A stretch of 41,349 nt of DNA from Thermodesulfobacteriota bacterium (GTDB taxonomy: Bacteria; Desulfobacterota_D; UBA1144; Nemesobacterales; CSP1-2): positions 1 to 41,349 of the forward strand of contig DASWID010000163.1 in NCBI GenBank assembly GCA_036397855.1. The letters are read 5' to 3'. The notes under the pieces were generated by a model. That model did no database searches. It had not been told where the DNA came from and worked only from the letters and a program-made list of their open reading frames with translations. Below are positions 24,587-41,349 of the stretch, in pieces. Position 1 is the stretch's first letter. Every line of letters starts with the position of its first letter. A program made the translations under genes and the position numbers.

Positions 24587-25036
24587 ATGTCGAAATATAT
24601 CATTAAAATCGCTGAATCTGAGGATGAACTGAAAGAATATTTTCGTATTCGCAATGAAGTGTTTGTCAGGGAGCAAAGGATATTTCCCGAAACAGATGTC
24701 GACGAATATGATCGGAATTCAATTCACATAATCGCAGTCGAAAGCTCAAGCAGTAACGTAGTAGGCGTTGTCAGATGCTACAGTAAGGATGGAAACACAT
24801 GGTTTGGCGGCAGACTTGGAGCTTTACCCGATTACCGTAATGGCAGAGTTGGATCACGTCTTGTGAGATTCGCTGTGAATACTGCCAAATCAAAGGGATG
24901 CAAAAAATTCCTGGCGTACATACAGCCCAATAATGTTAGATTCTTCCAGAGACTTGATTGGGAAAAGATAGGGGAGCCGATTATCTATCACGGTATTCCG
25001 CACCAACTCATGGAAGCAAATTTGGATTCGTATTAA
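24587..25036 (+). CDS. GNAT N-acetyltransferase, MSMEG_0567/Sll0786 nitrogen-starvation family
   Basis: The 149-residue GNAT domain has the family-typical opening FRIRNEVFVREQRIFPETDVDEYD, the acetyl-CoA loop LPDYRNGRVGSRLVRFAV and a C-terminal IQPNNVRFFQRLDWEKIGEP. The last part closely resembles the GNAT encoded in the Nit1 clusters of mycobacteria and cyanobacteria (MSMEG_0567, Sll0786). The acyl acceptor is unknown. An AIR-synthase-like gene of the same cluster follows, as in those organisms, but here a heptad-repeat array separates the two genes. This is the first gene of the 13-gene plus-strand cluster. Confidence 0.85.
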   Translation: MSKYIIKIAESEDELKEYFRIRNEVFVREQRIFPETDVDEYDRNSIHIIAVESSSSNVVGVVRCYSKDGNTWFGGRLGALPDYRNGRVGSRLVRFAVNTAKSKGCKKFLAYIQPNNVRFFQRLDWEKIGEPIIYHGIPHQLMEANLDSY

Positions 25037-25042
25037 TATCAC

Positions 25043-25164
25043 GATGCAGGATGCAAGATGCAGGATGCAGGATGCAAGTATGAAAAAAAGAACGTGTGTC
25101 CTGAATGGTGAATCATACATCATGCATCGTGGATCGTGTATCGTGCATCATGAATCGTGCATCC
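25043..25164. repeat. Heptad-repeat inverted array 1 (GATGCAR units / TGCATCN units)
   Basis: The left arm (25043-25078) is five tandem 7-mers of the type GATGCAG/GATGCAA. After a short A-rich spacer the right arm (25100-25164) is a longer run of 7-mers of the type ATCRTGN (CATCGTG, GATCGTG, CATCATG). The arms are complementary at six of seven positions per unit, so the transcript could form a long imperfect hairpin. It lies exactly between the GNAT and AIR-synthase-like genes. Three relatives are at 26777-26920, 28232-28337 and 40740-40816. Confidence 0.8.
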
Positions 25165-25211
25165 GCAAATTTTGACAAGGCCGTGTTATTAAAAAAGAAT
25201 AGGAATTCACT

Positions 25212-26201
25212 ATGGATGAGCTAATAAGTGCATTACGCAGCTCCCCTCGTTTAACCGATAAAGTAAATTTAAGAAACCTCTGGGATATCATACCGGGTGT
25301 TTGCGAAGTCGATGGTAGAAATGTGATTCTTGGTGACGATGCAGCGGCTATAGAGACGCAAGATGGTTATTTGTTGGTCGCTGCTGAAGGAGTTTACCCC
25401 GAACTTCTGAAATCAAATCCCTACCTGGCAGGGCGCACCTCTGTCCTTACAAATGTGAGTGATATTTACGCTATGGGTGGAAGACCGATCGCGATCCTGG
25501 ATGTACTATTTTCACCCAACTACGATGAAGTAAATGAGGTGCTTCGTGGAATAAAGGATAATGCATCACGATATAAAGTTCCTTTGGTAGGTGGTCATTT
25601 AACTCGGAAAACCAATTTTTCTTCGCTCTCAGTCTTTATAATAGGTAGGGCTACAAGGATACTCTCCAGTTTTAATGCCAAAACAGGCGATGACTTGGTT
25701 TTCGTTTGTAACTTAGAGGGGAAATTCTATTCAGGATTTAATTTTTGGGATTCCTCCAGTCAATTGAGTAGTGAAGACGCTCTGAGACAATTGGAAGTGT
25801 TTCCGCGACTTGCAGAGGAAGGAAAGGTTGACAGCGCGAAGGACGTTAGCATGGCAGGTTTAATTGGATCAGTCCTGATGCTTTTGGAGTCTTCGGGAAA
25901 AGGTGCAGAGATACACATAGAAAAGATTCCAAAGCCTTATGATATTCCATTAAGGGAGTGGTTGATTACCTTCCCGAGTTACGGATTCATTTTATCGATA
26001 AGACCACAATACACCACAGAAGTTAAGAAGATATTCAATTCTATTAAGCTCACGTGTCGAGTGATCGGTAAGATTATCGGCGGCAGTAATGTCTTATTCG
26101 TAAAAAATGGGGTTGAAAAAAGACTATTTTGGGATATTGAAGTTCAGCCTTTAATTGGTATTGGAAAAGGTAGATTAAAAAAGGTGAAAAATGGCGAATG
26201 A
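25212..26201 (+). CDS. AIR synthase-related protein, Sll0787 family
   Basis: The 329-residue product has the PurM/ThiL/HypE-like ATP-binding fold. The N-terminal glycine-acid loop is VILGDDAAAIE (about residues 39-49), then VLTNVSDIYAMGGRPIAILD and VPLVGGHLTRKTNF, the usual dimer-interface motifs, and DVSMAGLIGSVLMLLESSG of the second domain. The family is encoded in Nit1-type nitrogen-starvation clusters beside the GNAT above. Members probably phosphorylate or activate a carbonyl or amide, with the substrate unknown. The stop codon overlaps the regulator gene by 11 bases, so those two are coupled. Confidence 0.88.
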   Translation: MDELISALRSSPRLTDKVNLRNLWDIIPGVCEVDGRNVILGDDAAAIETQDGYLLVAAEGVYPELLKSNPYLAGRTSVLTNVSDIYAMGGRPIAILDVLFSPNYDEVNEVLRGIKDNASRYKVPLVGGHLTRKTNFSSLSVFIIGRATRILSSFNAKTGDDLVFVCNLEGKFYSGFNFWDSSSQLSSEDALRQLEVFPRLAEEGKVDSAKDVSMAGLIGSVLMLLESSGKGAEIHIEKIPKPYDIPLREWLITFPSYGFILSIRPQYTTEVKKIFNSIKLTCRVIGKIIGGSNVLFVKNGVEKRLFWDIEVQPLIGIGKGRLKKVKNGE

Positions 26202-26778
26202 ACAGAATCAGATAGAGACTATAGTTTCAAAACTAGGTGAGAAAATTAAGCGAATCCGATTAGAGAAGGGTCTGTCCCTTAAAGACTTGTCGGTAAAATC
26301 CGGAATCTCCGCAGCAGCTATCCACAAGATAGAGTCTAATGGAATAATCCCAACCATAACGACCATGATGAAGATCTCTGATGCATTGGGAAAAGAGGTA
26401 AGCTATTTCATTGAAGAAAGACGGGGAAAAAGGGATGTCTTTTTTGTACAAGTTCAACGACGTGAAAGTATTTTCACATTTAAGAAGGGATTAAAGCTTC
26501 ATGGTATTTCTGCAAAGAAATACGGAGACTTCATGATGACAGCCGCCTATGCAGTGGTTGACGTAGGGGCCGCAAGCGGTAGAAATCCAATGAAACATAG
26601 AGGAGAAGAGTTGGTATATTGCCTTAAAGGGAAAATGGAACTTCGAATAGGTGATCAAACATATACCCTAGGACCCGGCGACAGTATTCACTTCAGGACT
26701 GATATCAATCATAGTTGGAAAAATACTGCCGACGCTCAAGCAGAATTAATATGGGTGCTAGCCGTTGAACCTTCATGA
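26191..26778 (+). CDS. XRE-family transcriptional regulator with a C-terminal cupin domain
   Basis: The 195-residue product has an N-terminal helix-turn-helix of the XRE class (about 12-70: LGEKIKRIRLEKGLSLKDLS, then SGISAAAIHKIESNG). A cupin_2 domain follows, with MKHRGEELVYCLKGKMELRIG and LGPGDSIHFRTDINHSWKN supplying typical cupin motif 1 and 2 positions. Such proteins usually bind a small-molecule effector in the cupin and repress or activate the adjacent operon. Its overlap with the AIR-synthase-like gene and its place inside the cluster make it the likely local regulator. No operator could be identified. Confidence 0.9.
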   Translation: MANEQNQIETIVSKLGEKIKRIRLEKGLSLKDLSVKSGISAAAIHKIESNGIIPTITTMMKISDALGKEVSYFIEERRGKRDVFFVQVQRRESIFTFKKGLKLHGISAKKYGDFMMTAAYAVVDVGAASGRNPMKHRGEELVYCLKGKMELRIGDQTYTLGPGDSIHFRTDINHSWKNTADAQAELIWVLAVEPS

Positions 26779-26920
26779 TTCAGGATACAGGAAACAGGAT
26801 GCAGGATGAAAAGAAAAAAGATTAATCCTGAACCGTGAATCATGCATCTTGTATCGTGCATCATGAATCAGTTTTTATTTATCATGCATCATGCATCGTG
26901 CATCGTGAATCATGCATCTT
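26777..26920. repeat. Heptad-repeat inverted array 2
   Basis: The left arm (26777-26808) contains degenerate 7-mers (CAGGATA, CAGGAAA, CAGGATG). The right arm (26826-26920) is a long run of ATCRTGN units interrupted by a T-rich insert at 26870-26884. It begins at the stop of the regulator gene and ends just before the DUF1116 start. The repeat keeps a reading frame open, which makes the DUF1116 frame look 30 codons longer than the likely gene. Confidence 0.8.
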
Positions 26921-26931
26921 CTGTTAATACA

Positions 26932-28233
26932 ATGGTTGCTAAAATAAAAGACCAGAAAAAAACAGAGACCGGGGCATTAAAGTATCTCGGTGAGCGAATT
27001 AATGAAGCCAACACACTTGCGATAGACAGAATCTTATCCGTTGAACCTGTTTTCATTGATGTTGATACAGCACTTAATGTAATACCCGGTATGACCCACG
27101 ATACAATACTCCATGCAGGTCCTCCGATTGAATGGGAAAGAATGTGCGATCCGATGAAGAGGGCAGTTAGAGGAGCTTTAGTGTTCGAGGGCCTTGCAGA
27201 AAATGACGAGGCCGCAATTCAACTACTAAAAAGAAAAAAAGTAAAGCTCTCGCCAAACCATCACCATGACGCAGCGGGAGCGATGACGGGAATTATCTCG
27301 CCCTCAATGCCTGTCATTGTTACAAAAGACTCAACCTTCGGAAAAACAGTTTTTTCCACATTTAATGAAGGCGCAGGCAAAGTCCTATGGTTTGGGTCTT
27401 TCGAAAAAGAGACCCTTGATCGTCTCAAGTGGATTCGGGACATTTTTGGTCCTGTAATGAAGAAGGTTATCAAAAAAGCACAAGGCATCCCCATCTGGAG
27501 CATCCTGGCCCAGGGAATTCAGATGGGAGATGAGTGCCATAATCGTCACGCGGCATCATCAAATCTTTTTCTTAAAAGAATTCTCGAACCACTCGTTTCG
27601 ATCGATCTTTCAAAAAGAGTTTTGTTGCAGGTCTATAACTTTATTGCCGGAAATAGCCATTTCTTTCTAAACATTACCATGGCTGCCTGTAAACTCTCGA
27701 TGGATGCGGCACGGGGTATAAGAGAATCAACTGTTGTCACCGCAATGTCTCGAAATGGGACTGATTTTGGTATTCGAATAAGCGGACTTGGGAATGAATG
27801 GTGCACAGCACCTGCTCCTTATCTCAAGGATGCTCTATATAACCCTGGATACAACTTCAATGACGGAGCCCCAGATATAGGGGACAGCTCAATCATAGAA
27901 ACAATGGGACTTGGAGGGTTCGCCATTGCAGCCGCGCCTGCAATGGCATCATTTGCCGGAGGAGGCTTTCAAGAGTCTATAAGAATTACAAAGGAGATGG
28001 GTCGAATCACTCTTGTAAAGAATCAGAAGTTCGGAATCCCGGTATTGGACTTCGAGGGAACTCCCACAGGTATCGATTTACGAAAGGTCGTTGAAATTGG
28101 AATTAGCCCAAGTATTAATAGCGCCGTACTACATAAAAGCTCGGGAGCCGGTCAGATAGGTGCGGGAATCGTAAAGGCCCCATATGAATGTTTTTCGAAG
28201 GCACTCAAGGCTTTTGGCAGGAAATACACATGA
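26932..28233 (+). CDS. allG: DUF1116 protein (YlbE/AllG-like), subunit of an oxamate-carbamoyltransferase-type complex
   Basis: The product, about 433 residues, matches the DUF1116 family (Escherichia coli YlbE, renamed AllG). Family-like stretches are VIPGMTHDTILHAGPPIEWE, MKRAVRGALVFEGLA, LSPNHHHDAAGAMTG, GIQMGDECHNRHAASSNLF, SRNGTDFGIRISGLGNEW and AGGGFQESIRITKEMG. In E. coli this protein acts with FdrA/AllF and AllH to transfer a carbamoyl group from oxalurate to phosphate. The His- and Asn-rich motifs are probable active-site elements. I use the ATG at 26932; an in-frame extension to 26842 is encoded only by the upstream heptad repeat. No ribosome site is evident. fdrA follows. Confidence 0.88.
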   Translation: MVAKIKDQKKTETGALKYLGERINEANTLAIDRILSVEPVFIDVDTALNVIPGMTHDTILHAGPPIEWERMCDPMKRAVRGALVFEGLAENDEAAIQLLKRKKVKLSPNHHHDAAGAMTGIISPSMPVIVTKDSTFGKTVFSTFNEGAGKVLWFGSFEKETLDRLKWIRDIFGPVMKKVIKKAQGIPIWSILAQGIQMGDECHNRHAASSNLFLKRILEPLVSIDLSKRVLLQVYNFIAGNSHFFLNITMAACKLSMDAARGIRESTVVTAMSRNGTDFGIRISGLGNEWCTAPAPYLKDALYNPGYNFNDGAPDIGDSSIIETMGLGGFAIAAAPAMASFAGGGFQESIRITKEMGRITLVKNQKFGIPVLDFEGTPTGIDLRKVVEIGISPSINSAVLHKSSGAGQIGAGIVKAPYECFSKALKAFGRKYT

Positions 28234-28337
28234 TGCAGGATGCAAGATGCAGGATGCAAGATGCAAGATAATAAAAGAAAATATAGGTTAATCCTGGATC
28301 ATGTATCGTGCATCGTGCATCGTGGATCTTGAATCGT
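28232..28337. repeat. Heptad-repeat inverted array 3
   Basis: The left arm (28232-28268) is five clean 7-mers of the GATGCAG/GATGCAA type. The right arm (28291-28337) has seven ATCRTGN-type units. It fills the space between the DUF1116 stop (which it overlaps by two bases) and the fdrA start, leaving only 12 bases before the ATG. Confidence 0.8.
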
Positions 28338-28349
28338 TAAGAGAAAACT

Positions 28350-29900
28350 ATGGCTGTAGTCAGCACAGTTAAGAAAAACTTCTATCAGGATTCAATGAAG
28401 CTTATGCAGATTAGCCAAAAGCTAAGCAGTCTTAGCGGAATTAAAAAGGCGGCAGCAATCATGGCAACCGAAGCTAATCTAGCCATGCTGAAAGAGACGG
28501 GATTACTCAAGAAAGGAACCGATTCAGCCAGTCCTAACGATCTTATAGTGGCAATCGAAGCAGAGTCTGGAAAAGCAGCAGATGAAGCTCTAAAGATGTT
28601 GGACTCTCTTCTTGCCCCTCATCCAGCTGACGTTACTTCAAAAATTGAATATAAGGATCTTGATTCAGCTCTAAATAATTTGCCCCAGGCGAATATTGTA
28701 GTTATTTCCGTTCCCGGAGAATATGCAAAGTTGGAGGTTGCGAAGGCTGTTGACAGGGGTATCCATGTCTTTCTGTTTAGCGATAACGTATCAATCGATG
28801 AAGAGATTGAGCTCAAGCTTAGGGCAAAAGAGAAGGGTTTACTAATGATGGGTCCTGGTTGCGGAACAGCAATCATAAATGGAGTAGGACTTGGATTTTC
28901 AAATGTCGTAAATCGAGGTCCAATAGGGATTATAGCAGCAGCGGGCACTGGAATGCAAGAAGTTACTAGCCTTATAAACAATTGGGGATCAGGAATTTCA
29001 CACGCGATCGGAGTCGGTGGCAGAGACTTGTCTGACAAGGTAGGCGGAATAATGACGATAGAGGCAATAAGAATGCTTCTGGGCGATGAAGGAACAAAAG
29101 CCCTTCTTCTGGTTTCGAAGCCACCTTCAGATAAGGTAGCAAGAAGGGTCATAAATTTAATTCGTAAAGGTGACCTACCAGCTGTTATATGTTTCCTCGG
29201 AATGGAAAACATCAAAACGAAAGATTCAAAAATGCAATTTGCCACAAATTTGGACCAAGCCGCGCTTAAAGCAATTAAGCTGGTGGGAGCAAATAATCGC
29301 GCTCCCAAGGTTCTTTCTGATAACAAGTGGAAAAAAGCCGCTCAGAAGTGTCAAAGCCTTTTAAATACCGATCAGCTTTATCTTCGCGGCTTATTCTCTG
29401 GCGGAACCCTTTGTTATGAAGCCCAGCAAATCCTGACACCAATGCTCGGCAAAATATATTCCAATACCCCACTCTATAAGCAAAACAAATTAAAAAATTC
29501 AAATGTAAGCAAGCGGCATACATGTATTGATCTGGGTGAGGAAGAATTTACTAAGGGACGCCCTCATCCGATGATTGATGCGACACAGCGAAGTGAACGG
29601 CTATTACAAGAGGCATCCAATCCTGATGTTGCCGTGATTCTATTCGACGTGGTACTTGGATACGTCGCAAGCCCTGATCCTGCAGGTGATCTAATTCCCG
29701 CTATAAATGAATCAAAAAAAATAGCGAAAACTAACGGTCGTTCTATCACTTTTGTGGCGCATGTTTGTGGTACTGAGCGAGACCCTCAGGATCTAAAATC
29801 GCAGGAGAAAAAGTTGGAAAAAGCTGGAGTCATTGTTCTTCCCACAAACGCTTTAGCCTCTAGAGTGGCAGGATTAATAGCAAAAGGTGTGAAGACTTAG
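28350..29900 (+). CDS. fdrA: FdrA-like acyl-CoA synthetase-fold protein (AllF-like)
   Basis: The 516-residue product resembles FdrA/AllF. An N-terminal family region (about 1-100: YQDSMKLMQISQKLSSLSGI, AAIMATEANLAMLKETG) is followed by a CoA-binding Rossmann domain and a succinyl-CoA-ligase-type domain, with GPGCGTAIINGVGLGFSN, IGIIAAAGTGMQEVTSLI and GISHAIGVGGRDLSDKVGG. The phosphohistidine loop typical of succinyl-CoA synthetase alpha is not apparent. In E. coli it is a subunit of oxamate carbamoyltransferase. It sits between DUF1116 and carbamate kinase, the same association as in the allantoin region of enterobacteria, but without the ureidoglycolate genes. Confidence 0.9.
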   Translation: MAVVSTVKKNFYQDSMKLMQISQKLSSLSGIKKAAAIMATEANLAMLKETGLLKKGTDSASPNDLIVAIEAESGKAADEALKMLDSLLAPHPADVTSKIEYKDLDSALNNLPQANIVVISVPGEYAKLEVAKAVDRGIHVFLFSDNVSIDEEIELKLRAKEKGLLMMGPGCGTAIINGVGLGFSNVVNRGPIGIIAAAGTGMQEVTSLINNWGSGISHAIGVGGRDLSDKVGGIMTIEAIRMLLGDEGTKALLLVSKPPSDKVARRVINLIRKGDLPAVICFLGMENIKTKDSKMQFATNLDQAALKAIKLVGANNRAPKVLSDNKWKKAAQKCQSLLNTDQLYLRGLFSGGTLCYEAQQILTPMLGKIYSNTPLYKQNKLKNSNVSKRHTCIDLGEEEFTKGRPHPMIDATQRSERLLQEASNPDVAVILFDVVLGYVASPDPAGDLIPAINESKKIAKTNGRSITFVAHVCGTERDPQDLKSQEKKLEKAGVIVLPTNALASRVAGLIAKGVKT

Positions 29901-29926
29901 CTAACTAAATAAGCGGAGGGAATGTA

Positions 29927-30865
29927 ATGAAGGTAGCTGTAGTAGCTTTTGGTGGAAACGCCCTCATGGGTCACGAGGGTAAAAGCAATTATACAGATCA
30001 GATGAGGAGAACAGATACAATATGTAGAAAACTACTCAGCCTGTTTGAATTGGGATATAGGATTGTAATCACCCACGGTAACGGTCCGCAGGTGGGAAAT
30101 ATTCTGATGCAGCAGGAGTGTCTTATAGATTCTTTACCACCAATGCCACTTGACGTTTGTAACGCAATGACACAGGGACAGATAGGATATATGATAGAAC
30201 AGAGGTTGAGAAACATTTTCGAGGAAAAAAAGATCAAAAAATCCGTTGTAGTTTTAGTTACGCAAGTGGTTGTTTCAGAAAACGATCCCGCGTTTAAAAA
30301 TCCAACAAAGTTCATCGGGCCTTTTTTCAGTAAAGAGGAAACTGAAAGACTCGAAAAGGAGAAGGGCTGGAACATAAAAGAGGATTCAGGAAGGGGTTAT
30401 AGACGTATTGTTCCATCTCCAAGACCAATAGATATAGTAGAAAAAGACGAAATCTCGGACATGGCAAACAGAGATTTAGTCGTAGTAGCATGTGGGGGTG
30501 GAGGAATACCAGTGCTTAGAGACAAAAAAGGGAAACTAAAGGGCGTTGCCGCTGTGATTGACAAAGATTATGCAGCTGAAAGGATCGCGAGTCTCATAGG
30601 TGCGGATTCACTGATCTTAATAACGCCCGTCGACAAGGTATCAATATTCTACGGAACATCAAAACAGAAAGACCTTGGAAGATTATCGCTCGAAGAAGCG
30701 AGGGGTTACTACGATGAAGGACATTTCCCACCCGGGAGCATGGGGCCTAAAGTCGAGGCCGCTATGAAATTTATCAGCTCAGGCGGACGGAGGACGATTA
30801 TCACCTCTATAGAGGGTTTGGAAGATGCGATAAAAGGCAAAGGCGGAACGGTGATAACGCAATGA
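29927..30865 (+). CDS. arcC: Carbamate kinase
   Basis: The 312-residue amino-acid-kinase-fold product starts with VAVVAFGGNALMG. It continues with VITHGNGPQVGNILMQQE, RRIVPSPRPIDIVE, VVACGGGGIPV, AAVIDKDYAAERIASLIGAD, and the C-terminal PPGSMGPKVEAAMKFI, a complete set of family motifs. It converts carbamoyl phosphate and ADP to ATP, ammonia and carbon dioxide. GGAGGG lies 6 bases before the ATG, and the gene follows fdrA after 26 bases. With AllF/G/H-like partners it would harvest ATP from a carbamoyl compound. No arginine deiminase or catabolic ornithine carbamoyltransferase is in the window. Confidence 0.95.
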   Translation: MKVAVVAFGGNALMGHEGKSNYTDQMRRTDTICRKLLSLFELGYRIVITHGNGPQVGNILMQQECLIDSLPPMPLDVCNAMTQGQIGYMIEQRLRNIFEEKKIKKSVVVLVTQVVVSENDPAFKNPTKFIGPFFSKEETERLEKEKGWNIKEDSGRGYRRIVPSPRPIDIVEKDEISDMANRDLVVVACGGGGIPVLRDKKGKLKGVAAVIDKDYAAERIASLIGADSLILITPVDKVSIFYGTSKQKDLGRLSLEEARGYYDEGHFPPGSMGPKVEAAMKFISSGGRRTIITSIEGLEDAIKGKGGTVITQ

Positions 30866-31156
30866 AATAATATCAGTAGACCAGTAGTAACTTGTAGGGG
30901 ATTAATTTATAGAAATACTTTAAAATCGTTTTTTTTGAAATAAATTCCGTACTCCATAAAGAGTTATTAGAATTTGCGATTTTGGTATTTATGAAACGAT
31001 TTGCTATATATGACATCTAAGCACCAAGGCTTTTATACGTAGGAAGTTGAGATATTGCTTTTATTGAACTTTTGTAATATGATGGGATAATAAGGGGTGT
31101 GAGTTAACCGATTAAACATTAAATTTATTGAAGCGAGAACATAGGAGGTGATGTAA
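30866..31156. other. Intergenic region between carbamate kinase and the amidohydrolase
   Basis: About 290 AT-rich bases without a gene. It is the largest gap in the first half of the cluster and may hold a second promoter. It ends with an unusually strong ribosome-binding site, AGGAGGTG, at 31143-31150 that sets the TTG start of the next gene. Confidence 0.4.
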
Positions 31157-32002
31157 TTGAAAGTGAACAGAAAGGTTTTTGATGCTCATTCACACATAGG
31201 AGAGCTAGCGGCGTATAAATACTATGATTTAACAGAACCAGTAAAACCCACCGTGATCGAGTATCCCACTTATAAAGAATATCTAAAACATATGGACGAG
31301 TATGGTGTTGATCGCGCGATGGTGATTTCTAATTACGGAGTGCCTGACTCAGGTCAGCCATTTACTTTGAATCCAATTGTGCTTGATGGTGTCCATCATG
31401 CAGACCGACTGGTTGGAGCAATCTGGGTTTCCGGTCTTACAAAAGACAAAGAACGTACAGCGGAAGCATTAAAACATGTTAAGGAAGAAGGGATAGTTGC
31501 TCTAAAGTCTACATGCCTTCTTGGGGGTACATACAATCCTGGTGAATGGGATGATGAAGCGCGAGCATTATGGGAAAGCATAATTAATGCTGCTGAGCAA
31601 AATGACCTTGCTTTACATATTCATACGAGCCCTGGTGGAGGTTCAGACATTTCAAATGCACTCGAGTTAGTCAAAAAGTATGGGAAAAGAATCAAGATAC
31701 ATCTGGTACATATGGGTGGATTTGTTAGTGGACATATAAAGCTGGTACCAAAGTTTATTAATTTGGTGAAAGAAGGTTTTAAGGTTTATACGGATACAAC
31801 ATGGGCAGTTGGCTTTGGATCGCGTTGGTTACTCAGTGAGATTGAACGAACTGGTGTTGGCTCCGATAACGTCCTTTTTGCATCCGACACTCCATGGAGT
31901 GACTTTCCTTCGGAGTTCTGGAAGATCGAAGGCGCAGATATTTCTGAGGAATTAAAAAATAAGATTTTTTGGGAAAATGCCCAGAAACTTTATTCTAAAT
32001 AA
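31157..32002 (+). CDS. TIM-barrel metal-dependent amidohydrolase
   Basis: The 281-residue product is an amidohydrolase_2-type barrel. Strand 1 has FDAHSHIGE (His11, His13). Later metal and active-site positions are LHIHTSPGGGSD, KIHLVHMGGF and the final FASDTPWSDFPSEF with its catalytic aspartate. Relatives hydrolyse or decarboxylate small cyclic or aromatic acids. Within this cluster, which lacks a nitrilase, it may provide the hydrolytic step, but that is inference. Translation starts at TTG, supported by AGGAGGTG 6 bases upstream. An inverted repeat separates it from the following Sll0783-like gene. Confidence 0.88.
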   Translation: MKVNRKVFDAHSHIGELAAYKYYDLTEPVKPTVIEYPTYKEYLKHMDEYGVDRAMVISNYGVPDSGQPFTLNPIVLDGVHHADRLVGAIWVSGLTKDKERTAEALKHVKEEGIVALKSTCLLGGTYNPGEWDDEARALWESIINAAEQNDLALHIHTSPGGGSDISNALELVKKYGKRIKIHLVHMGGFVSGHIKLVPKFINLVKEGFKVYTDTTWAVGFGSRWLLSEIERTGVGSDNVLFASDTPWSDFPSEFWKIEGADISEELKNKIFWENAQKLYSK

Positions 32003-32011
32003 AAAACCGTT

Positions 32012-32100
32012 GCCACAAAATCACAAAGGCACAAAGGAGTAATCCAGAAGTTGAATGAAAAAATCCTAATTATAACTTTGTGTCTTAGTGTCTTTGTGGC
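32012..32100. repeat. CACAAAG-type inverted repeat
   Basis: GCCACAAAATCACAAAGGCA at 32012-32031, continuing to 32036, pairs with the sequence CTTTGTGTCTTAGTGTCTTT starting at 32076, continuing to 32100. The two 25-base arms agree at 21 positions and are separated by 39 bases. It belongs to the dispersed CACCAAGACACAAAG...CTTTGTGTCTTGGTG type. A partial copy lies at the right end of the window (about 41314-41328). It sits between the amidohydrolase and the Sll0783-like gene. Confidence 0.65.
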
Positions 32101-32139
32101 TGATAGAAGAAAATTAAATAAATTAAGGAGGTAGTAAAA

Positions 32140-32631
32140 ATGGCAGTCGATCGAGTAAAAGGAGAGAAACCAACAGTAGGAAAGGCGTTGGTAGATTATG
32201 AGGAGAAGGTATTCCCCGATCATAAAGCAAAACCAGGGGAAAAGGCGTTATTCCTTATCCACTCGGTGCCCTATGAAGGTTCTGTGGCTGGTATAAATAT
32301 GCTTACGGCCATAAGAGCTAAAAAGAAGGGTTATGATGTGAGCGTACTCTTTTACGGCCCGGCTTCCGGCATACCAGTATATAGGGGCTGGCCCAATGTT
32401 GGAGACGACGCTTATGGTGCTGGGATACAGTTATATCCAAACCTTGTTGCACGATTGATTAAGGAAGGAATAACGGTCTACGCTTGTCGCTTTTCAGCTG
32501 CTTCGCTTTGCGGTCTCAGAGAAGATGACTTTCTGGAGGGTGTAAGGGGGATACATCCAACTGACATCCTGGACATTGTAATCGAACACCATAGGGCTGG
32601 GGCAATGTTATTCAGCACTTGGACTGTTTGA
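32140..32631 (+). CDS. MSMEG_0572/Sll0783 family nitrogen-starvation response protein (DsrE-like)
   Basis: The 163-residue product has the family pattern GEKALFLIHSVPYEGSVAGIN, then VSVLFYGPASGIPVYRGWPNVGDDA, then YACRFSAASLCGLREDDFLEGVRGIHPTDILD. Its fold is DsrE-like, with Cys in ACRFSAASLCG as possible reactive residues. Homologues are strongly induced by nitrogen limitation in cyanobacteria (Sll0783) and lie in Nit1 clusters. The biochemical role is unsettled. A perfect AAGGAGGT site precedes the ATG, suggesting high expression. The radical SAM gene of the same cluster follows. Confidence 0.9.
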   Translation: MAVDRVKGEKPTVGKALVDYEEKVFPDHKAKPGEKALFLIHSVPYEGSVAGINMLTAIRAKKKGYDVSVLFYGPASGIPVYRGWPNVGDDAYGAGIQLYPNLVARLIKEGITVYACRFSAASLCGLREDDFLEGVRGIHPTDILDIVIEHHRAGAMLFSTWTV

Positions 32632-32767
32632 GAACAATTTATTAGCAGTTATCTTTTTTAATATTTATTTTTCAGAGATACTATAAAACGATCATTCTTT
32701 GGTCTGCAAGCTAAAGCCGTAGAGTGGTTGACTGGGTAGTATTGCTAAACTTATCTGGGGGTGATAA

Positions 32768-33898
32768 ATGGATCCAAGATCCCTGAAAGTGGAGTTGCAG
32801 AGTTACGGCGTGAGAATCCCTGATACCAGAGATATAAGGAGGGGTGGAGCGGGACCTACGGGCGGGATACATCTAAAGATTCTTCCCGACAGTGAAGCTA
32901 ACATTCCCGTGGTTGGGGGTTTCCTGGATTCCTCGCCCTACTATCTCGACCAAATTAATGGGGAATACTGGGTGTTTCGAGACGATGTAGCTCTAGCTCA
33001 GGTAGAGCTGATGAAGGACGCTAATTTTTATGAGCACAAAACATCAAATGGAATTCCGATGCAGAAAATTGGGCTGCTTCACTGTCCGACAACATTTGCG
33101 ACTACCCTTCTTCAGACCTGCGATTTCTGGGTAGATGAACGGAGGTGTAAGTTCTGCGGTATCGAGCTTACACTTAAGGATAGGAGCACTGTTGGTTTTA
33201 AAAATTCAAAAAGCCTTGTTGAGACTATTTTGCTTGCTAAGGAACTCGATGGAATTTCGAATATTGTTTTTACCTCGGGAGTTGCTCCAGATGAGGAAAA
33301 GGCATTACGAAAGTATGCCGAAATATGTTCAGAAGTGAAGAGATTCACGGGTCTTCCAATACAGCTTCAAATTATACCCCCTGAGGATCTAACCTGGCTT
33401 AAAAGACTAAAGAATGCAGGAGTTGATGCCCTGGGGGTTCATATAGAGACGTTTGACCCCGATGTATTTGAAAAAATTACCCCTGGTAAAGCGAGAATTG
33501 GATTCGATAAGTATTTGGAGACGTGGAGGGAAGGGGTGAATGTATTCGGAAGGTGGCAGGTAAGTACATATGTATTAGTAGGGCTCGGAGAGAGACTAGA
33601 AACGATAATAGAAGGAGCATCATTATGCGCTGAATTAGGAGTGTATCCCTTTATAGTACCATTCCGACCCATTGCTGGAACACCGATGGAAAATGTAAAA
33701 CCCCCAGAGCCAGAAATTATGAACTACGTTTATACAGAAGTCGCAACGGTTCTTGCAAAATACGATGGGGGATCAAAGAGCAGCAGTGCGGGTTGTGTGA
33801 GCTGTGGCGAGTGTTCAGCCCTTCCTGACTTTGAAAAGATGTTTAAGGAAAGTGAAGTCAAATTCAAAGGATTTATGAAAAAGAATAAGGTTAGCTGA
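32768..33898 (+). CDS. Radical SAM protein, MSMEG_0568 family
   Basis: The 376-residue product matches the Nit1-cluster radical SAM family (MSMEG_0568): GVRIPDTRDIRRGGAGPTGG at its N-terminus, then the likely cluster motif CDFWVDERRCKFC (Cys118, Cys127, Cys130). The spacing is C-X8-C-X2-C instead of the textbook C-X3-C-X2-C. A barrel follows with VFTSGVAPDEEKAL, LQIIPPED, ALGVHIETFDPDVF and VLVGLGERLET. A C-terminal CVSCGEC (Cys343, 346, 349) could bind a second cluster. It may build the nitrile or related group made by these clusters, but its substrate is unknown. GGGGGTG precedes the ATG. Confidence 0.9.
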   Translation: MDPRSLKVELQSYGVRIPDTRDIRRGGAGPTGGIHLKILPDSEANIPVVGGFLDSSPYYLDQINGEYWVFRDDVALAQVELMKDANFYEHKTSNGIPMQKIGLLHCPTTFATTLLQTCDFWVDERRCKFCGIELTLKDRSTVGFKNSKSLVETILLAKELDGISNIVFTSGVAPDEEKALRKYAEICSEVKRFTGLPIQLQIIPPEDLTWLKRLKNAGVDALGVHIETFDPDVFEKITPGKARIGFDKYLETWREGVNVFGRWQVSTYVLVGLGERLETIIEGASLCAELGVYPFIVPFRPIAGTPMENVKPPEPEIMNYVYTEVATVLAKYDGGSKSSSAGCVSCGECSALPDFEKMFKESEVKFKGFMKKNKVS

Positions 33899-33953
33899 AG
33901 TGTCCTGAAGATTTAATCTGCTGATTAATAAACAGGATTCGAAGAAAGTGAGG

Positions 33954-33969
33954 AACGCATATATGCGTT
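33954..33969. promoter_or_regulatory. 16-base palindrome upstream of the flavoprotein gene
   Basis: AACGCATATATGCGTT is a perfect palindrome, extended with one mismatch to GGAACGCAT/ATGCGTTTCC. It lies in the 147-base gap after the radical SAM gene, 77 bases before the next start. There is no T-tract, so an operator or an attenuator-like hairpin is as likely as a terminator. Confidence 0.4.
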
Positions 33970-34045
33970 TCCAAGTTTCCTGTTAAACTTTTACCTGGTT
34001 AATAAATTATATTTGGATCTGCGATTTCAGTGAGGTAAAAATATC

Positions 34046-35422
34046 ATGGCTCAAAACAATCTACGTATCATTGTTGTCGGAGGAGGCGCTGCTGGGATTT
34101 CCTCCGCCTCGACTTCCAAGGTTATCGCGCCGGATTCCAAAGTTACTCTTTTCACAGAATATGAAGATGTAGCTTACAGTCCTTGCGGTATCCCATTCGT
34201 ACATGGAAAGGAAATTCCAGATTTCAAGAATCTCTTTCTCCAGACCTCAGAGCACTATGCTGGGATAGGAATAGATCTAAGGCTCCAAACGACTGTTACT
34301 GGACTAGATGTAAAAAATAAGACCGTTAATGTTGGCTCAGATGTCTTCGAGTGGGATCGGCTGATTCTCGCAACTGGTTTTGAATATGAAAAGCCGGATA
34401 TTCCGGGTGTAGAACTCGAAGGTCTTCACTACGTTAAGAACATTCGTCGCGCAATGGAATTTGACAAGATTCTTGATCAGATAAAGAAGGCTGTAGTCAT
34501 GTCTGCAACTCCTCTAGGTATTGAAATGACTGGCGCCCTTGCCCAAAGGGGTCTTGAGACCCACCTTGTGGACGAGGGGGCATGGATAATGTCTGATGTA
34601 GCTGATCCCGATATAGTCGAACCAGTGCAGCAGTCTCTTGAGGAACTCGGTGCAAAAATCCATTTTGGCACTAAGGTCTTAGAGTTTAAAGGCTCTAATG
34701 GAAAGGTGGCCTCGGTAGTTACAAATAATGGTGAGATCGACTGTGATGTAGTAATCGTTGCCACTCATAAAGTGCCAAACAACAAACTCGCTAAGGCTGC
34801 AGGTTTAGACATAGGAGCAACCGGGGGAATACTCGTAGATGATCATATGCGCACATCCGTCAAAGATGTTTATGCAGCAGGAGACTGCATAGAAGTTGTT
34901 CATGGCGTAACTGATTTACCAATACAAGGCCTTTCCGGGAGCCACGCCTATTCCCAGGGAAGGGTTGCGGGCGCTAACGCCGCGGGCGATGACCGAGCTT
35001 ATGATCCTGTCTACATACCCTGGGGCATGGTAGGGGGCCACGTCCAGTTAGGGGGTGTTTCCCTTGGCGAAACGCTTCATAAGGCTTTAGGAATTCCGCA
35101 CTTCGTTGCCTTTGCTCAAGGAATATCCAGAGCCAGATACTATCCAGGAGTTAGCAGAATACGTGTTAAGCTCATTGCTGATCCGAAAACACTTCGAGTC
35201 ATGGGTGCGCAGATGTCGGGCGGTGAGGGAATCAAGGAAAGAGCAGACTTCCTTGCATTTACGATCAAACGTGGAGCCACACTGCATGACTATGCCTGGA
35301 TGGAAAATGTTTATTCACCCCCAATCGGGGCACTGATGGAGCCGATTGCACTGGCGGCTCAGGCTGGATTAGCAGAGTTGGCAAAGAGAAGATACGAAGC
35401 TCCAGAATTTGCCGGCAAATAG
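34046..35422 (+). CDS. Flavoprotein of the CoA-disulfide reductase / NADH oxidase family
   Basis: The 458-residue product has the FAD Rossmann motif VVGGGAAGISSAS (residues 10-22), the redox cysteine in AYSPCGIPFVHGKEIPD (Cys47), a second FAD motif DVYAAGDCIEVVHGV and a C-terminal dimerisation domain (from about 340). In relatives Cys47 forms a mixed disulfide with CoA or a sulfenic acid. The second nucleotide loop is degenerate: VVMSATPLGIEMTG replaces the normal VVIGGGxIGxEMAE, so ordinary NAD(P)H binding is doubtful. GAGGT lies 9 bases upstream. In typical Nit1 clusters a different flavoprotein (MSMEG_0569) occupies this role. Confidence 0.88.
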   Translation: MAQNNLRIIVVGGGAAGISSASTSKVIAPDSKVTLFTEYEDVAYSPCGIPFVHGKEIPDFKNLFLQTSEHYAGIGIDLRLQTTVTGLDVKNKTVNVGSDVFEWDRLILATGFEYEKPDIPGVELEGLHYVKNIRRAMEFDKILDQIKKAVVMSATPLGIEMTGALAQRGLETHLVDEGAWIMSDVADPDIVEPVQQSLEELGAKIHFGTKVLEFKGSNGKVASVVTNNGEIDCDVVIVATHKVPNNKLAKAAGLDIGATGGILVDDHMRTSVKDVYAAGDCIEVVHGVTDLPIQGLSGSHAYSQGRVAGANAAGDDRAYDPVYIPWGMVGGHVQLGGVSLGETLHKALGIPHFVAFAQGISRARYYPGVSRIRVKLIADPKTLRVMGAQMSGGEGIKERADFLAFTIKRGATLHDYAWMENVYSPPIGALMEPIALAAQAGLAELAKRRYEAPEFAGK

Positions 35423-35438
35423 AATAGAGGTAGCAAAA

Positions 35439-35699
35439 TTGGCAGACAACAAATCTTTCAGTCAATGGTTAAGAAAAAATGCTGAAAAGTACCTGCTGGA
35501 GGCTGCGGCTGATGATCTAATAGCCCGCTATCCCGATCTTTGCGCAAAGCCTTACCGCGATGAAGGGCCTGGTCCCTTTTTTTGGAGGAAGGTATTCGTT
35601 CCACTTTATACTTCTATTCCCTGGAGCATACGTAAAAAGATTATCCTTCTTACTGCATACCCGGGTGGAAAACGCCCACACTGGAAGAGTTTTACTTAA
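35439..35699 (+). CDS. Unrecognised 86-residue protein in the cluster
   Basis: I do not recognise this family. The start is TTG at 35439, supported by AGAGG 8 bases upstream. A further upstream ATG (35409) would overlap the flavoprotein gene and has no such site. The protein starts with a helical stretch (SFSQWLRKNAEKYLLEAAAD), continues with DLIARYPDLCAKPYRDEGPG and then an aromatic and basic half, FFWRKVFVPLYTSIPWSIRK, ending PGGKRPHWKSFT. The hydrophobic segment is too short and charged for a clear membrane helix. It begins 16 bases after the flavoprotein stop and ends 5 bases before the DUF2877 gene, so it is almost surely translated as part of the operon. Confidence 0.75.
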   Translation: MADNKSFSQWLRKNAEKYLLEAAADDLIARYPDLCAKPYRDEGPGPFFWRKVFVPLYTSIPWSIRKKIILLTAYPGGKRPHWKSFT

Positions 35700-35704
35700 T
35701 TCCG

Positions 35705-36685
35705 ATGCCATTAATTGCAGAATCCGTAGGTTATAAGGCCAAGAAGGCCCTACAGAATTCCCGAACAAAATCTAAGATACATAGCGTATTCGATCACGCC
35801 TTTTATATAGAAGTTAATGAAAACAAATTGATTAATGTCATAACGACTATATCGTACATGAGTTCAACCTCTGTTCTGATAAAGAATACAAGAATGAAGA
35901 GTTTTAAACTATTGAATATTAAAGAAGGTATGCAAGTTAGCGCAGACGATCGTCATATTGTGATCGGAGACAAGCTAGCAGCTATAAAACTTGATGGGTC
36001 CTCCACATATTCAAAACCCCCGGTCCCAAAAAAGGAATCATTAGGAAGTTTAGCTATGATAAGTTTGAATCTCAGGGTAGCTCGAGATGAAATATATAAA
36101 TGCAGGAGCAGGGACGGTCTGGTCGATGTATTGGAAAAGGTGGAAACCACGGGCCCGCTCAACCTTTTTCTAAAACCTCAAGAGATCAACCTTTCAGAAA
36201 GAGCAAGGCCTTATATCGAAAGGCTAATGTGGGGCCTCCACTGGGGCGATTCCGAGATGGTATTATCGAATGCCCAGTTGCTTCTAGGATTAGGCCCGGG
36301 ACTAACACCTTCATGTGATGACTTTTTAGCAGGTTTGCTAATGAGTTTAAACTTCGCGGGCAAAGTTATCTTAAAAGATATTAAGCAGGAAACGGAGTTT
36401 TATAAGATGATTTCTAACCAAATCTACAGGTCCGCAAAATCAAAAACAACTATATACAGCCTAAATAATTTAGAAGGTGCTTGTTATGGTGAAGGGCCTA
36501 ATGCAGCTGTGGACTTAATGCTCAGTCTGCTAACAAAGGATGCAAATCAAGTTGCAAAGTGTACTCGGATGGTGCTAAAGATCGGAGAAACAACGGGCGC
36601 CGATATCGCAATTGGAGTTTACTATGGAATTCGTTATTTGATTTCGCGATTAGAAGGTATAGAAAGCTTTGATGAAACCGCTTAA
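35705..36685 (+). CDS. allH: DUF2877 protein (YlbF/AllH-like), oxamate-carbamoyltransferase-type subunit
   Basis: The 326-residue product has the DUF2877 hallmark LLGLGPGLTPSCDDFLAGLL (about residues 196-215), then TIYSLNNLEGACYGEGPNAA and a terminal TGADIAIGVYYGIRYLIS. E. coli AllH (YlbF) has the same GxGPGLTPxGDD element and is the third component of oxamate carbamoyltransferase with AllF and AllG. Here it is separated from those two by carbamate kinase, the amidohydrolase, two Nit1-type genes, the flavoprotein and the 86-residue protein. The stop overlaps the glycosyltransferase start by 14 bases, indicating coupling. Confidence 0.85.
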   Translation: MPLIAESVGYKAKKALQNSRTKSKIHSVFDHAFYIEVNENKLINVITTISYMSSTSVLIKNTRMKSFKLLNIKEGMQVSADDRHIVIGDKLAAIKLDGSSTYSKPPVPKKESLGSLAMISLNLRVARDEIYKCRSRDGLVDVLEKVETTGPLNLFLKPQEINLSERARPYIERLMWGLHWGDSEMVLSNAQLLLGLGPGLTPSCDDFLAGLLMSLNFAGKVILKDIKQETEFYKMISNQIYRSAKSKTTIYSLNNLEGACYGEGPNAAVDLMLSLLTKDANQVAKCTRMVLKIGETTGADIAIGVYYGIRYLISRLEGIESFDETA

Positions 36686-37868
36686 GATCGCCCTATTTAC
36701 ATATTCAACCAAGCCAAGAGGAGGCGTCGTACATACTCTAAGATTGGCGGAGGAATTGACAAGTCTAAAACATGACGTTCATGTTTATACCCTATCCACC
36801 GGGAATGGCTTTTACAGAAATGTAGACTTTCCCCATACCCTTATACCTTGCCCGGTGGTCAACTATCCAAGCATTGATGAAAAGATAGAAAGCTATATCC
36901 GAATATATTACGAATATCTCTCGTCCATAAATGAACTTTACGACATCTACCACGCAGAGGATTGTATCTCAGCAAATGCACTATTGGAATTGCGTAATAA
37001 TGGAGTTATCAAGTCGTTCGTAAGAACGGTCCATCACCTAGATGATTTCACTTCTCATTCCCTAATTGAGTGCCAGTCGAACAGTATATTGGAACCCGAT
37101 CATGTGATGGTTGTTAGCAGATATTGGGAAAAGGAACTCCGTTCACTTTATTCCTTAAACCCTATACTTACTCAAAATGGCGTGGATGTGGGCAGGTTTT
37201 CACAACTTAAAGGAGACAAATATTCAAAAGAATCGGCAAAAGGTAAGTTTTCGGTTAATGGTTACAGGGTAATTTTGAGTATAGGTGGAATTGAACCGCG
37301 AAAGAATACCTTAACTACGCTCAGGGCGTTTAACATTGCAAAATCCCATTTTATGAAAAAGGGTGAGCGTTTGATATGGTTAATTGGAGGCGGAGAAACC
37401 CTCTTCGATTACAGGGCATATCGCGAGGAATTCTTTTCTCAAGTCGAGAGGCTAGGACTCAAAATGGATCAAGACATAAGGGTTCTTGGGAATATACCGG
37501 AAGTGAATATGCCAGACCTTTACGGCGCGGGAGATATTTTTGTATTTCCATCCCTGAAAGAAGGTTGGGGACTTGTCGTGCTTGAGGCCATGGCTTCAGG
37601 AGTTCCAGTCATCGCTTCCAATATTGCACCGCTGACCGAGTATCTAAAAGATAGTGAAAACGCAATCCTTATTCCTCCCATGGACCATGAGGCCCTGGCT
37701 CAAGAAATAATAAGTGTTTTGGAAGACGAAGATCTTCGAGAAAAACTAGCAACAAATGGACTGAGGACTGCCAAATCCTACAGCTGGCGGAGTACAGCGT
37801 TAATGCATTCGGAGTTTTATAATAGAATTCTAGAAGGTGTTATACCAGTTAAAAAAAACACATTGTAA
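36672..37868 (+). CDS. Glycosyltransferase, MSMEG_0565 family (GT4 fold)
   Basis: The product, about 398 residues, is a GT-B retaining glycosyltransferase. The N-terminal domain has FTYSTKPRGGVVHTLRLAEEL and IYHAEDCISANAL. The donor-binding domain has ILSIGGIEPRKNTLTTLRAF and the E-x7-E motif EGWGLVVLEAMASGVPVIAS (about 299-318). The N-terminal sequence is typical of the Nit1-cluster glycosyltransferase (MSMEG_0565), which suggests the final product is glycosylated. The start is ATG 36672, with TTG just before it, overlapping the DUF2877 stop. It is the last gene of the cluster proper and is followed by a GC-rich hairpin. Confidence 0.9.
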   Translation: MKPLKIALFTYSTKPRGGVVHTLRLAEELTSLKHDVHVYTLSTGNGFYRNVDFPHTLIPCPVVNYPSIDEKIESYIRIYYEYLSSINELYDIYHAEDCISANALLELRNNGVIKSFVRTVHHLDDFTSHSLIECQSNSILEPDHVMVVSRYWEKELRSLYSLNPILTQNGVDVGRFSQLKGDKYSKESAKGKFSVNGYRVILSIGGIEPRKNTLTTLRAFNIAKSHFMKKGERLIWLIGGGETLFDYRAYREEFFSQVERLGLKMDQDIRVLGNIPEVNMPDLYGAGDIFVFPSLKEGWGLVVLEAMASGVPVIASNIAPLTEYLKDSENAILIPPMDHEALAQEIISVLEDEDLREKLATNGLRTAKSYSWRSTALMHSEFYNRILEGVIPVKKNTL

Positions 37869-40313: not shown

Positions 40314-40700
40314 ATGGAAGTTCAGGCTATTTGGAAGAAGAATTATCGGGTTGAAGTTAGGGCGAGGCAATTTAATGTTCCTATTGATGAGGCTCCCGAG
40401 TTCAATGGTGAAGACACCGGAATGATGCCGACTGAATTATTTCTCTGCTCTCTAGCTTCTTGTTATTGCCTTTCTCTCGTATACGTTGCTAAAAAAAAGC
40501 AAATGAAAATTGAAGACATGCGTGTAAATGTAATAGGCGAAAAGGACAAAAGAAATTTCATTTTTTCAAGACTTATAGTAGAGGTTGAGAGTTCATTGCC
40601 ATCAGAGGATTTAGAAGATATCATCGATATTGCAATAAAATATTGCTATGTGAGCAATACTGTATCAAAATCATGCCCGATTGAGTATGTAGTAGTTTAG
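40314..40700 (+). CDS. OsmC-family protein
   Basis: The 128-residue product has the OsmC/Ohr fold with two cysteines at family positions: SLASCYCLSLVYVAKKK (first, on the central helix) and KYCYVSNTVSKSCPIEYVV (second, near the C-terminus). In Ohr and OsmC the pair reduces organic hydroperoxides; many members of this YhfA-like branch have unknown substrates. The conserved GEDTGMMPTELFLCSLASC opening supports the assignment. It is co-directional with, and followed after a heptad-repeat array by, the short FdrA-like gene. Confidence 0.88.
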   Translation: MEVQAIWKKNYRVEVRARQFNVPIDEAPEFNGEDTGMMPTELFLCSLASCYCLSLVYVAKKKQMKIEDMRVNVIGEKDKRNFIFSRLIVEVESSLPSEDLEDIIDIAIKYCYVSNTVSKSCPIEYVVV

Positions 40701-40739: not shown

Positions 40740-40816
40740 TGCAGGATACAGAATACAAGATGAACGACGCAGGACACAGCATGGATCATGGATCATGAAT
40801 CGTGTATCATGCATCA
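40740..40816. repeat. Heptad-repeat inverted array 4 (degenerate)
   Basis: The left arm (40740-40780) has degenerate units CAGGATA, CAGAATA, CAAGATG, CAGGACA. The right arm (40781-40816) has ATCATGG, ATCATGA, ATCGTGT, ATCATGC. It has the same architecture as the three arrays in the main cluster, more eroded. It lies between osmC and the FdrA-like gene. Confidence 0.7.
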
Positions 40817-40838
40817 TTTTTAATGGAGGGGAAATATC

Positions 40839-41297
40839 TTGGCAATAAAGTTCAAAATCAAAAAAGGCTATTTTCAAGATGCACTGCGTTTGATGCGAAT
40901 TTCCAAAAATCTAAGGGATATAGAAGGCGTAGAAAAGGCCGTTGCAGTAATGGCCACCGAAAAGGCAAAATTTGCACTCAAAGATGCCGGTCTGATGACC
41001 GCAGAAATAAACGATGCTAGTGGAAGTGATCTAGTAATCGTTGTCGAGGCCAAATCTGAAGAGATCGCAGAAGAAACATTGGACAGGATGGAAGAAATGA
41101 TATCATCAGGTGGTCCACGGGCTGGGAAGCCGTCTTCTTCTAATATACTTAATGATGAAATTCAAGCTATAAATATTGGACTTGAAGCCTTCAAGGACGC
41201 ATTAGAAGCACAGGGGGTAAAGGTGAAGCACGTCGATTGGCAGGTCCCCGCAAAAGGTGACATGAAGTTAATAAACATTCTGAAGAAGATGTATTGA
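40839..41297 (+). CDS. Short FdrA-domain protein
   Basis: The 152-residue product starts at TTG with GGAGGGG 8 bases upstream. Residues 1-75 resemble the N-terminus of the full FdrA encoded at 28350-29900: YFQDALRLMRISKNL against YQDSMKLMQISQKL, and AVAVMATEKAKFALKDAGL against AAAIMATEANLAMLKETGL. After a Ser/Gly linker the C-terminal 45 residues (EAFKDALEAQGVKVKHVDWQ, then VPAKGDMKLINILKKM) resemble a short segment that I associate with proteins of the FdrA/DUF1116 system. It lacks the CoA-binding and ligase domains. It may be an accessory or regulatory subunit of a second FdrA-type complex whose other genes lie beyond the window edge. Confidence 0.8.
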   Translation: MAIKFKIKKGYFQDALRLMRISKNLRDIEGVEKAVAVMATEKAKFALKDAGLMTAEINDASGSDLVIVVEAKSEEIAEETLDRMEEMISSGGPRAGKPSSSNILNDEIQAINIGLEAFKDALEAQGVKVKHVDWQVPAKGDMKLINILKKMY

Positions 41298-41349
41298 TGT
41301 AAGAACCACTACGGCACCAAGACACCACGTTCTTAATTATATTAAAACA

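Follow-up and report, generated by a model that had tools for sequence, protein, structure and literature searches.

The window analyzed here, a stretch of DNA of 41,349 nt, is the entire contig C163, and its edge is the contig end. At that edge lies an open reading frame resembling the N-terminal region of FdrA, in addition to a full-length FdrA gene elsewhere in the window. The question raised by this locus is what such a miniature FdrA-like protein (hereafter, the mini) does beside the main one. The earlier note described a 152-residue protein that keeps the FdrA N-terminal region and a short C-terminal segment, lacks the CoA-ligase domains, and is preceded by a heptad array of the kind found in the main cluster. 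The layout of the gene agrees with this description:

40780–40817, forward strand: period-7 array upstream of the mini gene
40825–40831, forward strand: Shine-Dalgarno-like GGAGGGG, 7 nt before the TTG start of the mini
40839–41297, forward strand: mini ORF, 152 aa, TTG start, with an FdrA-type N-domain, a linker and an AllF-type C-terminal tail
40839–41108, forward strand: N-domain of the mini (residues 1–90), an FdrA N-domain homolog whose model resembles a ferredoxin-like fold
40965–40967, forward strand: codon 43 of the mini, Ala in 21 of 21 aligned minis and Asn in 38 of 38 aligned FdrA N-domains
41148–41294, forward strand: tail of the mini (residues 104–152, 49 residues), equivalent to E. 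coli AllF 509–553 and YahG 7–50

When the mini was compared with the NCBIfam FdrA model NF004760, it was matched in two stretches (E 2.8e-22), the best of which covered residues 6–90. The score of 78.9 bits lies under the curated cut-off of 433 bits, and the mini is accordingly not a whole-protein member of the FdrA/AllF family. In the Pfam search, neither CoA_binding (PF02629) nor Ligase_CoA (PF00549) matched the mini, whereas both matched the main FdrA. Besides the N-domain, a second block is conserved, residues 104–152. A model of this tail, built from 21 minis (20 of the window's phylum and one from the genome G057), matched the extreme C-terminus of E. coli AllF (509–553) and the N-terminus of E. 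coli YahG (7–50), while the whole-family profile was aligned to chain residues 419–473 of the AllF structure (PDB 3dmy) with an E-value of 8e-4. The array ahead of the mini resembles the other period-7 arrays between genes of the cluster, at 25043–25163, 26777–26920 and 28232–28337.

The main cluster of the window is a hybrid of an allFGH-type set and genes of the Nit1C type:

24587–37868, forward strand: rest of the hybrid cluster, with Nit1C-type genes interleaved with allG, allF, carbamate kinase and allH
24587 (GNAT), 25212 (AIR-synthase-like), 32140 (MSMEG_0572), 32768 (radical SAM) and 36669 (glycosyltransferase): Nit1C-type genes
26842–28233, forward strand: AllG (DUF1116), no N-terminal tail; PF06545, 270.6 bits, cut-off 27
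28350–29900, forward strand: main FdrA (AllF-like), 516 aa, without the tail, from profile matches
29927–30865, forward strand: carbamate kinase; TIGR00746, 387.7 bits, cut-off 358.25
35705–36685, forward strand: AllH (DUF2877); PF11392, 73.3 bits, cut-off 25
40314–40700, forward strand: OsmC-family protein, conserved neighbor upstream of the mini (all 19 phylum loci read)

FdrA, AllG, AllH and carbamate kinase, the components of an AllFGH set, are all present in the window with scores above their cut-offs. The main FdrA was aligned to positions 4–492 of the 555 positions of NF004760 (492.7 bits against the cut-off of 433), and therefore ends ahead of the tail. The true start of AllG is probably later than 26842, because the first codons of the ORF consist of the heptad repeat. 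The Nit1C members GNAT, AIR-synthase-like, ORF1 (MSMEG_0572) and radical SAM exceeded the NCBIfam cut-offs of TIGR04045, TIGR04049, TIGR04044 and TIGR04043, as well as of TIGR04047 (the glycosyltransferase). Possible candidates for Nit1C ORF6 (about 100 aa) and ORF7 (a pyridine nucleotide-disulphide oxidoreductase) in the cluster are a 96-aa protein and a CoA-disulfide-reductase-like protein that scores below its cut-offs. As for the subfamily-1 nitrilase, seven CN_hydrolase matches were found in the genome and none of them on C163 or C57, the contig that overlaps the end of the window. This hybrid without nitrilase was seen across the phylum loci read, and it is rearranged in the genomes G057 and G394 and in a Methylocystis plasmid. 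The conserved 96-aa protein encoded at 35409–35699, between the FAD reductase and allH, had no NCBIfam match at 1e-10, and relatives of it also occur in G057 and G394. In the genome G002, a second, distant carbamate-kinase-like gene (L030:7695–8630, reverse strand, 33% identity) lies between allH and a small gene like the one at 35409–35699.

The distribution of the tail was then compared across 27 sets (21 + 6) from E. coli, other named plasmids and further genomes. The tail was carried by the FdrA C-terminus in four sets, by the AllG N-terminus in 16, by a free 57-aa ORF in three and by a mini in two. Exactly one tail was found in 25 of the 27 sets and two tails in none; where both FdrA and AllG were found, the figure was 24 of 25. 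The two sets with no detected tail are those of Nonomuraea, where FdrA and AllG are present, and of Vibrio diabolicus, where AllG is truncated and transposon-flanked and no FdrA lies in the stretch. Among the AllG carriers, the Aminobacter proteins have the same accessions as those of K. quasipneumoniae, the genes of G452 are on two contigs, and the Embleya match is partial. Several sets were picked by tail matches, which biases the census towards having a tail; nine named sets picked by an FdrA or N-domain match (H5, H91, H93, H128, H131 and H146–H149) gave eight with one tail and one, Nonomuraea, with none. AllH was not detected in the stretches of G057, Methylocystis, Aminobacter, K. quasipneumoniae and five AllG-type sets, so that a full AllFGH is not present in every set; in these cases, AllH may be encoded elsewhere or be dispensable. 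The free ORFs that contain only the tail are the following:

L070:7432–7605, reverse strand: free 57-aa tail ORF beside fdrA
L071:9784–9957, forward strand: free 57-aa tail ORF beside fdrA
L072:3517–3690, forward strand: free 57-aa tail ORF beside an fdrA fragment

In G179 and G294, the free ORF and the end of fdrA share 11 and 8 nt, respectively, which suggests coupled translation. In the stretch of G279, the tail ORF was accompanied by an fdrA fragment only, and AllG was not found. A wider search in the order of G179 (eight genomes) returned G179 and G279 again and no other free tails.

In the window's own phylum, the tail model matched neither the 19 full FdrA proteins nor the 22 AllG proteins, a few of the latter being cut at an end. 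When it was applied to all 3081 ORFs of 33 stretches from the window's genome and phylum, it matched 21 ORFs, all of them minis and belonging to 20 genomes (C163 and C57 each contribute a copy); no other ORF, FdrA and AllG included, was matched at E < 0.1. Within the window and C57, the two copies of the mini were the only matches, in line with one tail per set, a pattern that comes from the present analysis and not from a published criterion. The mini is probably a fourth, separately encoded subunit of the AllFGH-type (oxamate-carbamoyltransferase-like) complex of its own cluster, to which it would supply the tail in trans. The computed basis of this reading consists of homology, conservation, synteny, the lack of a tail in the main subunits read, and the single tail in 25 of 27 sets; from here we infer the complex, the position at an interface, the docking role and the reaction. 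The proposal in the earlier note that FdrA is split into separate polypeptides, or exists in an adaptor form, finds support in substance, as the piece absent from the main FdrA is the piece carried by the mini.

The position of the gene allows another reading, in which the mini stands outside the enzyme as an adaptor or regulator that delivers the carbamoyltransferase to a further enzyme encoded in the cluster or senses a ligand. Its partners could be the MiaE-like protein, the methyltransferase, the aminotransferase block or the Nit1C enzymes. Among 57 genomes of the phylum (the window's own included), a full-length mini was found in 22 and an FdrA N-domain, within a frame of at least 222 aa, likewise in 22; both were found in 19. 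In the three genomes with FdrA and no mini (G007, G035 and G037), the FdrA contigs stop before the expected position of the mini; the three with a mini and no FdrA match (G016, G031 and G041) are assemblies of 140 to 280 contigs. In a smaller sample of 40 genomes, AllG was found in 22, of which 19 had the mini, and in G031 a mini was found but no AllG match. Nineteen other phylum loci were read, with G040 and G041 left out; the mini is directly preceded by the OsmC gene in all 19 and directly followed by the MiaE-like gene in 18, and the gene order from the MiaE-like gene onward is common to most relatives read. Moreover, the MiaE-like gene was matched in 22 of the 57 genomes, exactly those that bear the mini, and the mini lies about 9–17 kb from fdrA in the phylum, the two genes not being adjacent. 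The gene order around the mini, the co-occurrence with the MiaE-like gene and the distance from fdrA would suit an adaptor. However, in G057 and G394, which belong to another and larger phylum group, a full-length mini lies 10–12 kb from a tail-less FdrA/AllG pair and adjoins an MSMEG_0565-type glycosyltransferase, and the MiaE-like query gave no match in G057; there, the mini therefore goes with FdrA and the Nit1C-type genes. In addition, the tail belongs to AllF or YahG elsewhere, and the main subunits are without it exactly where the mini is found. A role outside the enzyme is hence considered unlikely and, judged from gene content and order, the mini is the distal member of one cluster that it shares with the main FdrA.

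To place the N-domain, a tree of 59 N-domains was inspected. A split with SH-aLRT 99.5 and UFBoot 99 had all 21 minis together on the same side. FdrAs from clusters of their own type were the nearest neighbors, though weakly: mean identity was 33% to the FdrAs of the phylum and 29% to the others. The simplest account would be a single duplication of an FdrA N-domain, followed by its spread with the cluster. Across FdrA N-domains, seven positions never vary (38 of 38 sequences, or 34 of 34 after collapse at 90% identity). The minis retain Asp14, Leu18, Gly51 and Asp64 in 21 of 21 and Met38 in 20 of 21, but Asn43 is replaced by Ala in 21 of 21, and Ser15 by Ala in 18 of 21, Ser15 being kept in three. 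The mini of G394, which stands outside the alignment of 21, has Ser at position 43 and Ile at position 15 when aligned by eye. Thus, the FdrA N-domain is present in the mini without the full set of invariant residues. The loss of Asn43 suggests that the N-domain of the mini no longer performs the role of this residue in FdrA and serves for docking instead.

The same losses, together with the missing CoA-ligase domains, could be expected of a dominant-negative form or decoy, that is, a fragment of FdrA without catalytic function that would switch the enzyme off by titrating FdrA or AllG. A decoy would not account for the mini bearing the set's only tail, for the pattern of one tail per set or for the existence of free 57-aa tails, and we regard it as improbable.

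In the AlphaFold model of the mini, residues 1–90 were of moderate confidence (mean pLDDT 65–86 per block of ten), and much of residues 91–152 had a pLDDT below 50; the model was made from an alignment of four rows. A Foldseek search with this model gave no match at E up to 0.001, and VIA-align gave a best Z of 8.2, with many ferredoxin-like domains listed, possibly reflecting only a common arrangement. When the tail was modelled alone, low-confidence helices only were obtained (mean pLDDT 67.8), in place of the strand-helix-strand arrangement expected from its sequence.

The earlier note had also suggested that another FdrA-type set starts just beyond the window, as the homology of the mini to the FdrA N-domain might imply. 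The sequence beyond the contig end is available:

40835–41349, forward strand: terminal overlap with C57 1–515 (515 bp, end to end, 96.3% identity, 19 mismatches)

The copies of the mini on C163 and C57 differ by 3.7%, and the simplest reading of the overlap would be a single locus, broken in the assembly, with variation between strains. From the mini onward, C57 carries genes for a PDDEXK_3/GxxExxY protein, a MiaE-like protein, Methyltransf_20, an aminotransferase and a decarboxylase. When all 33,472 bases of C57 were searched in two stretches with the FdrA, AllG and AllH models and a carbamate kinase query, the mini was the only match. The genome (completeness 95.65%) contains one AllG match and one full FdrA. 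A second FdrA set is hence refuted for the genome as assembled, and its start beyond the window is very improbable. A weak match elsewhere in the genome, at C81:10909 (E 1.4e-4), has an internal stop. Two further observations concern this region: no period-7 array with a score of at least 40 was found in the first 20 kb of C57, and the GxxExxY/PDDEXK_3 gene (L005:602–1003, on C57, between the mini and the MiaE-like gene) had no match in the loci of 34 relatives (L025–L058).

The note named the absence of any related gene downstream, along with a lack of conservation in relatives, as what would speak against its reading; the first is indeed seen on C57, but the second is not, as orthologs are conserved. 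Full-length orthologs were found in 21 other genomes of the phylum and in two of another phylum. They are of 150–152 aa where read, except for one with an earlier called start, and related minis also occur on public contigs titled "Deltaproteobacteria bacterium" and "Desulfobacterota bacterium". In the plasmid collection, 132 records matched the mini, and none had one place covering at least 80% of the query; a full-length mini was thus not found among them. The dN/dS ratio of the mini was 0.07–0.24 in nine pairs, the estimate being rough for some pairs with dS above 0.9; by this measure, the mini is under purifying selection. Since full-length orthologs at 53–75% identity exist and dN/dS is 0.07–0.24, the mini is not a chance ORF, and the 152-residue ORF is confirmed as real. 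That the mini is a decaying piece of duplicated fdrA or the product of faulty assembly, to which the contig end and the 3.7% difference between the C163 and C57 copies might point, is scarcely credible, as pseudogene and chimera are ruled out by these orthologs, these ratios and the same flanking order on long contigs (for example, in G008 and G034).

We therefore return to the mini as a separately encoded fourth subunit. AllF-AllG-AllH of E. coli is the oxamic transcarbamylase and AllK the carbamate kinase (PMC11326118). The identification of AllFGH as an enzyme dates only from 2024; according to the same paper, it bears no similarity to known transcarbamylases, and its subunit arrangement is an estimate (PMC11326118). 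In the window's system, the tail of the mini would take, in trans, the place of the C-terminus of E. coli AllF or of the N-terminus of YahG in the yah set. This place is most likely the point where FdrA and AllG meet, because in other lineages the tail is fused to one of these two subunits, at the end of FdrA or at the start of AllG. The duplicated N-domain, which is without the invariant Asn and usually without the Ser, would most likely dock the tail on FdrA through pairing of N-domains, not through substrate binding. The reaction would be carbamoyl transfer to phosphate, followed by ATP formation by carbamate kinase.

A bolder form of this proposal is offered tentatively, as a possibility that falls short of an even chance. 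The tail of about 50 residues at the AllF-AllG junction may be an unrecognised fourth functional element, present once per enzyme, for which any polypeptide can serve as the carrier. Here, it would be carried by a dead copy of the FdrA N-domain in an assembly that mixes FdrA and mini and in which ligand is bound by only some of the N-domains, and the mini might set stoichiometry or regulate the enzyme besides completing it.

Fused to one or the other of two subunits, carried on a third protein or encoded freely, the segment would mark the place where the subunits meet, and the model predicts a part of the enzyme whose loss should abolish activity. The 57-aa tail ORF is easily overlooked in annotation, and sets judged complete by allFGH alone may miss a part. 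Furthermore, the Nit1C/allFGH hybrid connects two poorly understood nitrogen gene clusters. None of the open-licence papers listed dealt with a free FdrA tail, a miniature FdrA or a tail on DUF1116.

Among known systems, E. coli AllF (FdrA, PDB 3dmy; PMC11326118) comes close to the mini, as its N-domain (2–87) and tail (509–553) are both homologous to it. Between these two parts, AllF has CoA-binding and CoA-ligase domains, whereas in the mini they are joined by a short linker only; the invariant Asn43 is also absent from the mini. E. coli YahF is a tail-less FdrA like that of the window, and the sole tail of the yah set is likewise on another polypeptide (YahG 7–50, the N-terminus of a DUF1116 protein); unlike in the mini, the tail there is fused to AllG, with no FdrA-type N-domain attached. 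The free 57-aa ORFs of G179, G294 and G279 resemble the mini in keeping the tail apart from FdrA and AllG, but they have no N-domain and adjoin fdrA, whereas the mini lies about 10 kb away. As to the cluster, the GNAT, AIR-synthase-like, MSMEG_0572, radical SAM and glycosyltransferase genes of the Nit1C cluster (Podar et al., 2005; PMC1199592) are also present in the window. The window differs from the Nit1C cluster in having no nitrilase match on the contig and in the interleaved allFGH and carbamate kinase genes. The Methylocystis plasmid (L081) carries a similar Nit1C/allFGH hybrid, but with an annotated nitrilase and with the tail on AllG.
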